A stretch of 64,000 nt of DNA. Origin: Limosilactobacillus oris. GTDB taxonomy: Bacteria; Bacillota; Bacilli; Lactobacillales; Lactobacillaceae. A program made the position numbers and the translations under genes. This document shows positions 56,535-63,401 of this stretch, piece after piece. The stretch spans positions 558,001 through 622,000 of the forward strand of contig NZ_CP104398.1 in NCBI RefSeq assembly GCF_025311495.1. The letters run 5' to 3'. The notes below the pieces were generated by a model. That model searched no databases. It was not told the origin of the DNA and saw only the letters and a list, made by a program, of their open reading frames with translations. Numbering within the stretch: the first letter of the stretch is position 1; each line of letters starts with the position of its first letter.

Positions 56535-59500
56535 TTAATTAAAGAAGTCGTGACCATCACCATAATTAACCATGTCCTGGTTGATTTGACCCAGGTAGTA
56601 GGACTGCTGAACGGCATCACTGCCATCCTCACCAGCAGCATAGCGACTAATCAGGGTGTAGCGGTGCCCAAAGGCAAACTGTGGCGTCTGCAAGCCAATC
56701 TTAAAGCCCGACTCGCCAGCATTCTGGTACTGGTTGCCATAGAGGCGGGCAATATCTGGGCGGCTCGTGTCCCGGGCCGGCAACATTGGGTTCCCGTAGG
56801 TCGCACCGCCGACCTGCTGGCCAGTCGTGTTATCAATTAACATGATGTCGTGGTACGGGCGACCAGTAACGGCATTCGAGGCGTGCCAGCCGCTAGCAAA
56901 GAAAAAGATCCGGTTCGGGTTATCGGAGCTCAGGGCCGGGTTGATGAAGACCGCCCACTTGTCGAGTGCGCCGACCCCATCACCGGTCCCCCGGACAGCC
57001 CGGGAAGCTGGTTGGGCCGCCGTGAATGTCTGCGGGGCAAACCAGTAGTCCGTCGCATTGCCGTTACCAGCCGGGTCAGTAGTCCAGCGACTGACGATTG
57101 CGAGCCGGTGGCCATCAAGCTGGGCCGGATCAAAGGCAAAGTTGACGTTGAAGCCGGACTCCCCAGCATTCAGAATTGTCGGGAAGGCCCGGGCGACGTC
57201 CGGACGTTGTACCAGCGGCGTTTCCACCCGGCTAACCTCGTAACCCGTTGTTTGGTCGAAGAGGATGACGTAGTGGTATTGCTTGCCAAGGGCCTGGTTA
57301 GAAGCGTGCCAGCCGGTCACGGTCAGTTGACCATTGTTGAGACTAAAGCCATCCAGGCTGGCCCGGTTGCTCTGGTCACTAACCAGCAGTTGCGGTGCGA
57401 ACCAGTAGTCGACATAGTCGCTGTTCTCGTTGCCAGCGGAAGTCCAACGACTGATGATTTGAATCTGGTCATGGGCCATTTCCGGTTGAAAATCAAAAGC
57501 GGCACTGAAACCGGAATCAGCGGCGTTATAAATCGTTGGAAAGGCCTTCGCAACGTCAGGCCGGGCCAGGCGGCCAACAGTTTGCCGACCAAGTTCCCGG
57601 TGCTGGGTGGCATCATACAGGATGATCACGTGCTCATCAGTTCCCATCTGGTTGGTAGCGTGCCAACCGCTAACACGAAGCTGGTTGCCGCTAAGAGAAA
57701 TATTATCTAAGTTAGCGTGATTTCCCTGGTCGAGCCGCATTGCAGGCATCCAGTAGTCGGTGTGATTACCTTCACCGTTAGTAGCATCATCAGAGTAACG
57801 AGAGATAATGCTCAGTGAATGCTGGCTCGTGCTTTGAAGGAGGGCAAACCGGGCCTCAAAACCGGACCGATTACTATCGAGGACGTTTTGGTACTGACGC
57901 GCAACGTCCGGCCGCTGGATCGGTTGGGTGGCAAAGTGCGGGTTCCCGTAAAAGTCACTGGCCTGGTCCTTGACTGGCATCCGAACGACCTCCTGGTGGG
58001 TATCGTTATCGTAGAGGATGACCCAGTGGTAAGGCTGGGCAAGGCTATTCCCCGCAACGTGCCAGCCGGAAACGACGAGGTCGATCCCGGTCCCGTTAGT
58101 ACCGCGCTCCGCATGGTAGTTGTCAACCCAGCCGGCATTGACCTGGCTGTTGACTAAGCGGGGAACGGCCATCCAGCAGTCGGTCCGGTTGCCCTCCCCG
58201 TTAACGGCATCATCGGAGTAGCGGGCAATCACGGAAAGGTTGTGACCCAATTCGGCACGGGACAGGGTAAAGGTGCCGTCAAAGCCGGATTGACCACTGT
58301 TGGCAATTCCCGGAAAGGCACGGGCAACATCGGGACGGCTGACAACGTAATTATCAGCATCTGAGAGCTTAACCCGCTGAATTTCGGAATTGGTGGTGTT
58401 ATCAAAGAGGATCAGCCAGTGACTGCCTTCGGTCACACTCCGGCCCGCGGCGTGCCAACCGACAACGTTCAGCTGGATATCACCATTCCGTGAATTAGTG
58501 CTTAAATGGTAGCCATCCAGGTTGGCCTTATTGGCATTCAGGTCGGTGACCGGGTTGAGGTTGTTGAAGTAGTAATCCTGGTACTGACCATTGCCGGCCG
58601 GGTCGTTGCTAAAGCGAGCAATCACCGTCAGACGGTCCCCGTAGGCATAGGTTGGGATGTCCACGTCAGCCGTAAAGCCAGCCGCCTGGCGCCCGTTGGT
58701 GTTCGGGTAAAGGCGGTCAACGTCTGGCCGGTCAACCAACTGGGCTTGGGCCCGGCCAACCTCCCGACCATTGTCCAGCACAATGATGTACGGGTACTGG
58801 TAGTCAGCGCTGGCGGAAGAAACGTGCCAGCCTGCTAAATGGAGCTTGCCGTTTTGCGCGGAGTAACTGTCAAGCCAGCCATTGTTTTGGCTGAGGTCAG
58901 GGGTATCCGGAATGCTGCTCGTTGGGGTGACATAAATCTGAATCGTATCGTCCTGGTCACCTAATTGCCAGTGCTGCCATGAGCTATCACTCGGGTCAAA
59001 TTGGTAGCCAGCTGGCGCGTGGACAGAACTTGCCGCCACCTGGTCGCCGGACTTTCCAGTAAAAGTCTGAGTGCCAACGACTTGCCCTTGAGGGTTTAGG
59101 TATTGGACTACTAAGTTCACGGTTTGAGAATTCAACAACTGGTTGAGGTGATTTTGTTCCGTTTTTAGTTTAGCTTGGTCTTTTGTTAATCGCTGTTGGT
59201 ACTGCTGTAACAGTGACTGAGCCGAATCTAATTCATTCTTAGCCTCTGTTAGTGAATTCCAAAGTGTTTTCCCTTCTTTAGTATACGTGAAGTAATCGTT
59301 AAATTCTTTTTCGTTATTTAGCTTTACAACTTCTTGATCCAACTGTTTCTTGGCAAATTCATAATTTGTTTTTGCCAGTTGGTAATCTTTGTCTAAATTA
59401 GCTAAATTTACTTTTAGATTCGTCCACTCATAATATTGGTCTTCAGTTTTGTGGTATCTGGTCATATCATGGTGGTCTTCTTCAGCAACTTTTAGGTAGT

Positions 59501-60143
59501 AATCTAAATCGGCCCGGTAATGAGTTAAAGGATCATCTGCTAACAATTTAGGATCAATGTTATTTAGAATTTGGGTGAGTTGCTCAAAACGTTCCTCTTT
59601 TGCACGTCTATTAGCAGGTTGTATTTCAGCACTTAATTTTTGATACTCCTGATTAGCTTTATCATACGAGCTTTTGTAAAATGAGTAGTCATTTTCTCGA
59701 GCAACCTTTAATGCATGGTCATAAGAAGCCTGTGCACTTTGATAATTTCTATTAGCGCTATCATAAGTTTCTTGCTGCTGATTAACCTGCTCCTGGTCTT
59801 GTTTAATGGCGGCCTGTCGTGCATCAACTACCTTTTGCTGTTCTGCCGCGGTCGATGCATTTGTGTTCTGAGTATCTAGCCAGCCAGAAACGGAACCATT
59901 AACGGTTGGGTACCCATCATAACTACCATCGACTGAACTATTAGTTGACGCTGATTGCGCAGTCGCAGTAACATTAACTGCCGGTTGACTAGTCAGCGCA
60001 TCGGTTACAACCGGTTGGCTTTGCTCGGTCGTATCCGCATGAACCGAGGCCGTTGCCAAAGCAGTCCCGGCAGCAACCGCAAAGAGGGTTGCAACCAGCC
60101 AGTTTTTGCCGGCTTTGTATAGTTTCTTATGTTCTTTTGCCAT
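56535..60143 (-). CDS. KxYKxGKxW-signal surface protein with six RDV repeats
   Basis: 1202 residues. Signal peptide 1-~36 with KxYKxGKxW (K7-LYKAGKN-W15), cleaved near SVHA-D. A Ser/Thr/Asn linker follows, then a charged coiled-coil segment (~100-340), a MucBP-like module (~342-406) and six ~110-residue repeats (~420-1180). Each repeat ends in the glucansucrase RDV motif, R-P-D-V-x12-SGF-x19-20-R-(Y/F/W)-(S/T/A); RPDV/I starts at residues 472, 603, 744, 861, 980 and 1128. Each repeat also has a GWHxxx motif. No LPxTG anchor and no GH70 catalytic domain. Secreted and probably non-covalently cell-bound; a glucan- or host-binding adhesin role is inferred. The coiled-coil DNA is much more AT-rich than the repeats. 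Confidence 0.85.
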   Translation of the reverse strand: MAKEHKKLYKAGKNWLVATLFAVAAGTALATASVHADTTEQSQPVVTDALTSQPAVNVTATAQSASTNSSVDGSYDGYPTVNGSVSGWLDTQNTNASTAAEQQKVVDARQAAIKQDQEQVNQQQETYDSANRNYQSAQASYDHALKVARENDYSFYKSSYDKANQEYQKLSAEIQPANRRAKEERFEQLTQILNNIDPKLLADDPLTHYRADLDYYLKVAEEDHHDMTRYHKTEDQYYEWTNLKVNLANLDKDYQLAKTNYEFAKKQLDQEVVKLNNEKEFNDYFTYTKEGKTLWNSLTEAKNELDSAQSLLQQYQQRLTKDQAKLKTEQNHLNQLLNSQTVNLVVQYLNPQGQVVGTQTFTGKSGDQVAASSVHAPAGYQFDPSDSSWQHWQLGDQDDTIQIYVTPTSSIPDTPDLSQNNGWLDSYSAQNGKLHLAGWHVSSASADYQYPYIIVLDNGREVGRAQAQLVDRPDVDRLYPNTNGRQAAGFTADVDIPTYAYGDRLTVIARFSNDPAGNGQYQDYYFNNLNPVTDLNANKANLDGYHLSTNSRNGDIQLNVVGWHAAGRSVTEGSHWLILFDNTTNSEIQRVKLSDADNYVVSRPDVARAFPGIANSGQSGFDGTFTLSRAELGHNLSVIARYSDDAVNGEGNRTDCWMAVPRLVNSQVNAGWVDNYHAERGTNGTGIDLVVSGWHVAGNSLAQPYHWVILYDNDTHQEVVRMPVKDQASDFYGNPHFATQPIQRPDVARQYQNVLDSNRSGFEARFALLQSTSQHSLSIISRYSDDATNGEGNHTDYWMPAMRLDQGNHANLDNISLSGNQLRVSGWHATNQMGTDEHVIILYDATQHRELGRQTVGRLARPDVAKAFPTIYNAADSGFSAAFDFQPEMAHDQIQIISRWTSAGNENSDYVDYWFAPQLLVSDQSNRASLDGFSLNNGQLTVTGWHASNQALGKQYHYVILFDQTTGYEVSRVETPLVQRPDVARAFPTILNAGESGFNVNFAFDPAQLDGHRLAIVSRWTTDPAGNGNATDYWFAPQTFTAAQPASRAVRGTGDGVGALDKWAVFINPALSSDNPNRIFFFASGWHASNAVTGRPYHDIMLIDNTTGQQVGGATYGNPMLPARDTSRPDIARLYGNQYQNAGESGFKIGLQTPQFAFGHRYTLISRYAAGEDGSDAVQQSYYLGQINQDMVNYGDGHDFFN

Positions 60144-60376: not shown

Positions 60377-60737
60377 TCACTTACCCTTAAAAGGGTCTGA
60401 GTATTCTGTACTTGTTAACTTGTCTATTGAAATATCATGCTTTTCCTGGTCTCGGATATATTTCTTAATTGTGGCTTCATTCATGCCAACTGTACTTAGG
60501 TAATATCCTTCTGCCCAGAAGTAGCGATTCCCAAACTTATACTTCAAATTGGCGTGACGATCAAACATCATCAATGCACTTTTTCCTTTTAGGTATCCCA
60601 TGAACTGCGAAACACTCAACTTTGGTGGGATACTTACTAGTAAGTGTACGTGATCAGGCATCATATGCCCTTCTATAATTGCTACACCTTTATAGTTGCA
60701 CAATAGTTTGATGTAATCTCTGAGATCTTTTCGATAT

Positions 60738-61792
60738 GGCAGATTGCAAGAAATAACTTGAACGAATTTAATGACGTAAATTAAGCAGGAAGATCTCGAT
60801 TGGTGTGCGCCAGTTAAGACATTTAAGTGGCCGGAAATTCAGATACCAATTGATTTGAACCAGCTGGCGATCGCTCAGCTCTTCAATAGCTTGTCCCTTG
60901 GGAATAAATCGTCGCAAAACTCGGTTACGATTCTCATTACTACCGCGTTCATGTGGTGAATAAGCATGGGCAAAATAAACCGGAGTACCAGTTTGCCGTT
61001 CAATTGTCTGATAGTTAGCGAACTCTTTACCATGATCCACGGTAAGCGTCTTGAGCTTGTCTTGAAGTTGACTAGCTAGTTCAACTACGGCTTGAGTCAT
61101 GGACTGACTGTCGCGGCCATGGAGCCGTTTAACAATTGTCAGGCGACTCTTACGCTCCACAAAAGTAGCCACAGCTTGACCTTTACGCTTGCCAGAAAGC
61201 ACGGTGTCAGCTTCAAAGTGGCCAAATTCCTGGCGAGTTTCGATTTTATGAGGACGCTCCTCAATTGAGCGGCCGTGACTGAATGTACCACGCTTTTCTT
61301 TAGCGCGATGGCGACGTATTCCATGATCAGGCAAATCAGATAACTGCACATCAAGCCATTTTTGATCAATCCAGTTATAAACCGTCTTGTAGGCAATCCC
61401 CACCACATGGGCAACTTGTTCAGGGGACCACTTCTGGACTTGAATCCTTTCCTCGACCAAGTGTTTAAGGTTTTTAGTGAGCGAAGACTTCCGCCTCCGT
61501 TGACTAACCTTTTGTTCAAAGTCAGTTTGCGCTAGCTCAGCCTGGTACTCACTATTTAGCCGGTGAAGTTCGTTAAAGATGGTGGTCTTACTAAAGCCTA
61601 AGTAGTTAGCGATGTATCGCAAAGAACGTCCTTCATTATGAAGCGTTTCAATGACAACGCGGTGCTGGAATGATAAAATAGTGGTGCCCATCAAGGTCCT
61701 TCTTTCTAATGGAATGTTGAGGTAACACCATTAAAGACCTTGATGGGTTTTTCTGTCCACTTAAATGTTCAACTTAAATTTTACAATCTGCC
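60738..61792 (-). mobile_element. IS30-family insertion sequence (copy B)
   Basis: 1055 bp bounded by inverted repeats GGCAGATTG(C/T)AA (left 60738, right end 61792) and flanked by ATAT at 60734-60737 and 61793-61796, a likely 4-bp target duplication. It splits the IS200 tnpA codons for NQY and RKDL. Confidence 0.9.
60768..61691 (-). CDS. IS30-family transposase (copy B)
   Basis: 307 residues from ATG 61691 (a TTG precedes it). Helix-turn-helix (RSLRYIANYLGFSKTTIFNEL) and DDE domain: D162 (EFGHFEADTV), then LTVDHGKEF and RGSNENRNRVLRRF. The frame is intact, so the element may still be mobile. Belongs to a different IS30 subgroup from the copy at 34049. Confidence 0.93.
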   Translation of the reverse strand: MGTTILSFQHRVVIETLHNEGRSLRYIANYLGFSKTTIFNELHRLNSEYQAELAQTDFEQKVSQRRRKSSLTKNLKHLVEERIQVQKWSPEQVAHVVGIAYKTVYNWIDQKWLDVQLSDLPDHGIRRHRAKEKRGTFSHGRSIEERPHKIETRQEFGHFEADTVLSGKRKGQAVATFVERKSRLTIVKRLHGRDSQSMTQAVVELASQLQDKLKTLTVDHGKEFANYQTIERQTGTPVYFAHAYSPHERGSNENRNRVLRRFIPKGQAIEELSDRQLVQINWYLNFRPLKCLNWRTPIEIFLLNLRH

Positions 61793-61894
61793 ATATTGAT
61801 TGAATATTATTTTACGTCTATACTTTGGAATGAATACGATATGGTACTTACATAACTGTGAAGTGCAAGACAAAAGTTAGGCAAAATTGAAATA

Positions 61895-62763
61895 TTAAGC
61901 TGCTAAGGTATGATTTCGGTACTCAACCGGAGTCATACCTTTTGTTTTTAAGGTCGTTCTGACGTTGTTAAAGTACTGAACATACTTCTGGGAAAGTTCA
62001 GTTAGTTCTGTAATATCCTTACATGGTGGAAAGCCAGCCAGTAATTCCGTCTTAAATAAGTGAAAGGAACTTTCTATCGGAGCGTTATCCAAGCAGTTTC
62101 CTTTCCGTGACATTCTTTGAATAAACCGATGATCCACTAACTTTTGGGTATAGTAAGCTAACTGGTAATGCCAGCCTTGATCTGAATGGATAATTGGTTG
62201 GGCATCATCAGGTAAATGGTCGATTAATTCTGTCAGAGTTCGCATAATCAAATCTTTACTGGGTCTGGTGTTAATCTGAAAGGCCAGAATCTCTTGACTC
62301 GCTTCGTCAATCATTACCGAGATATAAGCCCATTGATGATTGGCTAAACGAACCTGCGTCACATCAGTATGAATAACCTGGTAAGGCCAAACTTCATTGA
62401 ACTCTTGCTTTAATTTATTGTCTGCAACCTGACCAACAGTGCCATGATATGATGAATATTTACCATTCCGATGGCGATTGTATAAGCTTACTTGTATGTC
62501 TAATTCACGCATTAACTTCCGAATTGTATCACCCAAATGTAATTTAAGTTTGTCCATTCTGCTTGAATGCGACGATAGCCCGCTGTCCAACGCCCTCGGA
62601 TTTGAAACTGTTGAGCGATTTGAAGAATTACTTTCTTCACTTCACGATATTTATCATGACGATTAGCGATGCGTTTCCGTTCATCGTGATAGGTTGCCTT
62701 AGCTAGTTCCGTTGCTTTAAGCAGGTCGCCAATCTTATAGCGCTGTTTCTTAGGTAGTGATGC
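61895..62763 (-). pseudogene. IS3 orfB transposase, frameshifted
   Basis: DDE integrase with IHTDVTQVRLANHQWAYISVMIDEAS, PIIHSDQGWHYQL and the Glu region APIESSFHLFKTEL. The N-terminal part (YKIGDLLKATELAKATYHD, GRWTAGYRRIQAE) is in a different frame from the rest; a single T seems lost near 62553-62558. An in-frame TAA at 62764 closes the upstream side. Confidence 0.85.
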
Positions 62764-62942
62764 TTAATCGTCCCTGATCGGATCCACTATTTGGGTTTTC
62801 TGCCTGGCTTTGAGGGTCCGAACAGGGACAGCGATTTTTTTAAGATATCGCGCTCCAGTTTGGTATCATAGAGTTCACGGTTCTTCTTCGCTAGTTCTTC
62901 TTTTAACCGTTCTAACTCACTTTTATTAGCGAGTTGACGTGC

Positions 62943-63320
62943 CTACTTTTTAGTATGTTTCATTTTAGACAGCCTACCTTTCGGGTGAGGCTTCAAAGCT
63001 GTAATCCCGACCCGTTCAAATTGTGAGCACCATACAGAAATTTGTGCTGGTAAGACATCAAAACGAGCCGCTACTTCAGCCATTGAATCCTCATGAGTTT
63101 GGTAGTAGTCTATCACACTTAATTTGAAATCAGTGGTAAAGGTTCGCTTATGTCGGTGAGGTTTAAAGGCATCAATCCCGTTCAACCGATACCTTTGAAT
63201 CCATTCAGCTATTCGACGCCTACTAATTTGATATTTGTCACTTAAAACATAAGTACTTTGCGAAGTTGATAGGTATTCATTAACAATTTGCGCCTTTAAT
63301 TCAGGTTTGTATTTGACCAT
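62943..63320 (-). pseudogene. IS3 orfA, cut by a nonsense codon
   Basis: Helix-turn-helix protein (MVKYKPELKAQIVNEYL, YQISRRRIAEWIQRYRLNG, SMAEVAARFDVLPAQISVW). A TAG at 62943 stops it after 125 residues, but the same frame continues into a typical orfA leucine-zipper region (RQLANKSELERLKEELAKKN), so the original gene was about 175 codons. Confidence 0.75.
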
Positions 63321-63401
63321 ATAAAAAGTACCCCACAATCATTAGATTTCTTGTCTAACAATTGTAGGGCACTTCAAATTCATCTCCTGGCTTTTTCATG
63401 G

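Follow-up and report, generated by a model that had tools for sequence, protein, structure and literature searches.

RDV repeats of a Limosilactobacillus oris surface protein belong to a widely shared module that probably binds the bacterial cell wall

RDV repeats were first described in glucansucrases (PMC11299179), in which they are published as an auxiliary domain, with five copies lying ahead of the catalytic core. A GH70 review of 2024 treated them within GH70 alone and left open the role of the repeats and of their conserved patch (PMC11299179). A second described system is EfAmi1 (PDB 8C4D), an Enterococcus faecium prophage amidase whose crystal structure leaves the C-terminal domain unresolved; in the accessible part of the 2023 study this domain was left unclassified, with the suggestion that it is a new peptidoglycan-recognising carbohydrate-binding module; that part of the text draws no link to RDV repeats (PMC10167349). 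Finally, Lactobacillus lysins use ChW, SH3b, SlpA and LysM domains as exchangeable wall-binding parts, a job comparable to the one proposed here; these are other named families, and RDV is not listed beside them in the available portion of that source (PMC10610939). The L. fermentum lysin LysMP was considered as an experimental precedent and rejected, as it is described with an SH3b domain instead.

The window, i.e. the whole 64,000-nt stretch of L. oris DNA analysed here, contains on its minus strand (positions 56535-60143) a reading frame that is open from its ATG start and encodes a protein of 1202 aa with six RDV repeats. All features of this protein given below lie on the same strand. Residues 1-39 (60027-60143) comprise a KxYKxGKxW signal peptide, matched by both Pfam (PF19258; E = 1.8e-9) and NCBIfam (TIGR03715; E = 2.2e-7), in line with an earlier note that had classed the product as a KxYKxGKxW surface protein. 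AF2 predicted the ~240 residues at aa 98-338 (59130-59852) to form long helices with low-to-moderate confidence (mean pLDDT 65), and coiled-coil families matched this region weakly in domain searches. It is followed in the AF2 model by a small beta module (aa 341-407; 58923-59123) that resembles MucBP: MucBP_2 scored below threshold (E = 0.024; 15.6 bits vs a cut-off of 23.4), and no MucBP domain exceeded the cut-off in the window protein. In an L. reuteri plasmid protein of similar architecture, a true MucBP precedes the RDV repeats. With its long helices and small beta module, the model is consistent with the coiled coil and MucBP-like module that had been proposed, though the MucBP_2 match stays sub-threshold.

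Six RDV modules of 109-134 aa each, delimited by motif, alignment and profile, occupy aa 420-1186: repeat 1 (aa 420-528; 58560-58886), repeat 2 (aa 538-660; 58164-58532), repeat 3 (aa 669-802; 57738-58139), repeat 4 (aa 808-918; 57390-57722), repeat 5 (aa 926-1038; 57030-57368) and the most divergent copy, repeat 6 (aa 1058-1186; 56586-56972). Their motifs lie at aa 472, 603, 744, 861, 980 and 1128 when the pattern is slightly loosened to R(P/N/S/T/Q)DV-x11-12-(S/A)G(Y/F)-x17-22-R(Y/F)S; two of the six follow the strict form, and variation includes ends in W, T or A and a DI in repeat 6. The loosened motif, found in all six modules that the earlier note had recognised, did not occur in any of 2000 shuffles of the protein. 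Pairwise identity between the repeats is 25-48%, with ten invariant columns. In L. oris DSM 4864 (the contig common to L049 and G028) the gene is colinear, with about 88% DNA identity across its surroundings; at the protein level, the orthologue is 88% identical in its N-terminal part, and its repeats are visibly more similar than that. Directly ahead of the repeats it bears an extra insert of ~70 aa, by its looks another MucBP-like module. Upstream of the window gene, positions 60377-63338 hold transposase ORFs of the IS200-type Y1 and rve/HTH_38 types and an rve + HTH pair.

Repeat 5, modelled by AF2 with high confidence (pLDDT 94.4, pTM 0.87), folds into a beta-sandwich with a helix inserted at the RPDV motif, and by this model the RDV domain is an Ig/FnIII-like beta-sandwich. 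Matches among solved structures were unspecific (Ig, FnIII, C2, GH2-domain and CBM21-like folds; best Z 8.4), with FnIII rows at Z of about 7 amid many other Ig-like folds and no match with E under 0.001 in this fold search. Three groups of domains, those of Limosilactobacillus, of GH70 proteins and of Enterococcus, keep residues D6, G19, W20, R55, D57, V58, G72 and F73, and clostridial domains also retain GW, RxDV and SG; D6 is present in 96% and GW19-20 in 99-100% of RDV domains. Among 359 domains below 80% identity, columns 55 and 72 read R55/G72 in 319, S55/R72 in 32, neither arginine in 8 and both in 0, these being raw counts irrespective of shared descent. One arginine is thus kept, at either of two positions, by reciprocal swap. 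D57, GW and R93 are common to both types, and the S55/R72 type occurs in Limosilactobacillus, in an Enterococcus-type chromosomal protein and in an Enterococcus phage lysin. Repeats of the S55/R72 type also make up most of an NlpC/P60 protein of the source genome (L083:4808-8413).

How do these repeats relate to those of glucansucrases? Profile comparison, on which the suggested kinship hinged, matched the repeats of five GH70 loci in four related genomes to the window profile with E values of 1e-34 to 4e-12, and the motif together with the upstream D and GW of the window repeats agrees with the published GH70 description (PMC11299179). Given that profile, motif and upstream D and GW all match, the window repeats and the GH70 RDV repeats are, as judged from sequence, the same domain; those of L. 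reuteri GTFA and Gtf180, which are FnIII-like, share the beta-sandwich type as well, in contrast to which the window protein has six copies and no enzyme. Domain and genome searches found no GH70 catalytic domain in the window protein, as had been claimed, nor anywhere in the genome. GH70 was present in 10 of 50 congeneric genomes, six of which lacked RDV, and was absent from 20 of the 24 RDV-bearing Limosilactobacillus genomes, the source genome included. Hence, the module is in wide use, and GH70 proteins are a minority among its carriers. The idea of a free-standing module holds, with RDV repeats found on many proteins without GH70; their location outside a glucansucrase is true of this protein but turns out to be the rule rather than an isolated oddity.

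A profile search of the 2.0-Mb L. oris genome returned 82 RDV copies, spread over about 16 proteins; among the 50 congeneric genomes, 24 contained between 1 and 93 copies each. Across the order, RDV was detected in 30 of 395 genomes, counts that derive from a lighter first look for many-copy genomes, mainly in Limosilactobacillus and in one other family with phage-type lysins, which we judge from phage and plasmid matches to be Enterococcaceae. In an even sample of 398 Bacillota genomes (E 1e-5), the sole match was the source genome itself, arguing that the strict RDV form is a matter of Lactobacillales. Neither Pfam nor NCBIfam has a model matching the repeat. A diverged form was seen in clostridial proteins (L073 and L074) that Pfam calls Big_7 (PF17957): hhalign aligned RDV and clostridial Big_7 with a probability of 98% (E = 7e-14), and these Ig domains of clostridial wall enzymes share GW..SRPDV..SG(Y/F) with RDV but differ towards the C-terminus and at the D-Y-W end. 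The window repeats themselves gave no Big_7 match in Pfam up to E 1, so that RDV appears distantly related to Big_7 through its clostridial members only. A literature search on Big_7 gave nothing about wall binding. An Acetobacteraceae locus (L075) was set aside as a chance match. In PHROGs, positions 223-451 of phrog_35916, to which no function is assigned there, correspond to RDV repeats.

RDV is fused to most kinds of peptidoglycan-cutting enzyme and to phage lysins, evidence that bears on function by association. Partners in the source genome, assigned on individual stretches of it, comprise GH25 (twice), M23 (a second M23 falling below cut-off), Amidase_5, NlpC/P60 with PG_binding_1, glucosaminidase and the L,D-transpeptidase domain YkuD, and further C39_2 and a beta-lactamase2-like domain. 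Both GH25 domains of the genome lie on RDV proteins; four of the five glucosaminidases and three of the four YkuD domains are without RDV, which is therefore not a general requirement for wall enzymes. A similar spectrum was found in 38 relatives, namely M23 (5), YkuD (4), glucosaminidase (3), Amidase_2 (3), GH25 (2), Amidase_5 (1) and NlpC/P60 (1), with GH53 and CotH as additional partners; all three RDV proteins from other Lactobacillaceae were lytic, and the Enterococcaceae partners were CHAP, phage lysozyme, tail lysozyme and Amidase_2/3/5. Carriers outside the peptidoglycan enzymes include GH70, GH53, MBG and DUF285. Six source-genome RDV proteins, the window protein included, lack a known enzyme. 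One of them has a SEC10/PgrA domain, which usually occurs in LPXTG proteins, and RDV repeats at its end. The gene at L083:229-3729 repeats the window layout of signal, coiled coil, small module and six RDV repeats. L. reuteri plasmid proteins combine KxYKxGKxW, DUF285, MucBP and RDV; in the records of such plasmids, L130:83-4003 among them, proteins with DUF285, MucBP and an RDV array are labelled 'BspA family leucine-rich repeat', their RDV part being without annotation.

The lysins are of both prophage and phage origin. In the source genome, the start of a gene encoding GH25 plus two RDV repeats overlaps a holin gene (PF05105) and its product has no signal peptide by eye, and for these reasons it reads as a prophage endolysin; on L. 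reuteri pLRI02, a GH25 + RDV gene likewise comes after a holin. A tblastn search with a single repeat matched 59 phage records, all from Enterococcus and spanning size classes of 18 kb, about 42 kb and 140-150 kb; the genes that were hit bear the name lysin or amidase in almost every case. Three Listeria records and one Acinetobacter record from the whole-protein search were gone with the single repeat and were excluded. Of the viral models, the phage vB_EfaP_Zip endolysin came closest in structure (E = 4.5e-8, TM 0.81). The sole PDB sequence match of RDV was EfAmi1, whose C-terminal domain, matched by repeat 1 of the window protein, hit the RDV profile with E = 4e-12. In EfAmi1, RDV is the whole C-terminal part and the only domain besides the amidase; this homologous domain thus occurs there in one copy on an enzyme, unlike the arrangement in the window protein.

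Anchoring offers a further clue. The window protein ends in ...NYGDGHDFFN without an LPXTG motif and is thus not an LPXTG surface protein, and the motif is missing from all RDV proteins of the source genome and from 40 complete ones of relatives. Yet the source genome encodes a sortase and, elsewhere, 19 LPXTG anchors; this exclusion of LPXTG from RDV proteins fits RDV as a substitute anchor.

We put the probability at about 0.75 that the RDV repeat is a non-covalent cell-wall-binding module, and read the window protein as a surface protein with a coiled coil that six such modules would anchor. The producer's own wall is the preferred target because it is what autolysins, L,D-transpeptidases, endolysins, glucansucrases and LPXTG-less adhesin-like proteins most simply have in common. 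The earlier note had proposed alpha-glucan or the cell wall; the lytic and endolysin carriers make the wall likely, while alpha-glucan as general target fits poorly with so many RDV-bearing genomes devoid of GH70. As carriers span genera with differing cross-bridges and wall polymers, a conserved part of peptidoglycan is probably the ligand rather than alpha-glucan, which we consider unlikely in a general role. A module of ~112 aa would hold the Gram-positive wall non-covalently, and Lactobacillales and Enterococcus phages would attach one to eight tandem copies of it to secreted, mostly peptidoglycan-acting proteins, with additional copies presumably adding avidity. The probable binding site is a conserved surface cluster of D6, GW19-20, R55 (or R72), D57 and SGF. 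The six repeats at the C-terminal end of the window protein would replace the LPXTG motif as anchor, displaying the N-terminal coiled coil and MucBP-like module outwards, and glucansucrases would stay cell-bound through the same module. Going by its build, our guess for the head is a role in adhesion or display. The literature searched yielded no binding experiment on any of these RDV copies.

Ig/FnIII-like beta-sandwiches are often mere spacers, and the repeats could be inert parts of this kind, their tandem arrays keeping a functional head off the wall. In carbohydrate enzymes, FnIII domains are commonly viewed as linkers, a point discussed in PMC11299179. We regard this as improbable, since in EfAmi1 and other lysins RDV is terminal and the sole non-catalytic domain, leaving nothing to space, since a polar core is conserved across families and its arginine maintained by reciprocal swap, and since most carriers would be left without a wall anchor. 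Binding to alpha-glucan, by which the cell or the enzyme would be tethered to the glucan produced, draws on the first description of the repeats in glucansucrases (PMC11299179), on their presence in the GH70 enzymes of four related genomes and on CBM21 and like carbohydrate-binding modules among the fold matches. It is nonetheless very improbable: as counted above, most RDV-bearing genomes lack GH70 and most GH70-bearing ones lack RDV, and alpha-glucan is of no evident use to endolysins and L,D-transpeptidases. Slightly less credible still is that the repeats bind host mucin or epithelium and make the window protein a classical adhesin; a gut-type genus, the KxYKxGKxW signal and the MucBP-like module would suit that role, yet prophage and phage endolysins and autolysins share the domain, and the window protein would again be without a wall anchor.

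The GH70 RDV repeats (PMC11299179) and the EfAmi1 C-terminal domain (PMC10167349) are one and the same domain, and this shared identity provides a directly testable role and grounds for naming a new domain family. We further hold it more likely than not that RDV, or GW-RxDV-SGF, stands for a broad, so far unnamed Bacillota family of wall-binding Ig-like domains, one that takes in the Big_7 relatives of clostridia, the lysins of Enterococcus phages, the autolysins of Lactobacillaceae and the glucansucrases. Such a family would draw its binding-site arginine from either of two backbone positions; in some Limosilactobacillus, where it has expanded to 80-90 copies in a single genome, it would serve as a main non-covalent anchoring system alongside sortase. 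Expansion of this kind across a genome suggests that Limosilactobacillus has a second route for furnishing its surface, one independent of sortase. In lactobacilli and enterococci, RDV modules are candidate anchors for lysins and for display.

Two loci elsewhere in the source genome deserve mention. Positions 1822000-1880800 of C1 (L082, L083 and L084) hold eight RDV genes with differing enzyme or surface heads within 58 kb, and this stretch near 1.82-1.88 Mb looks like a surface-protein island. Directly behind an intact RDV gene, L080:7614-10538 (genome 1569613-1572537) is a KxYKxGKxW-like RDV-Amidase_5 gene split by an in-frame TAG within one repeat, which may be a pseudogene.
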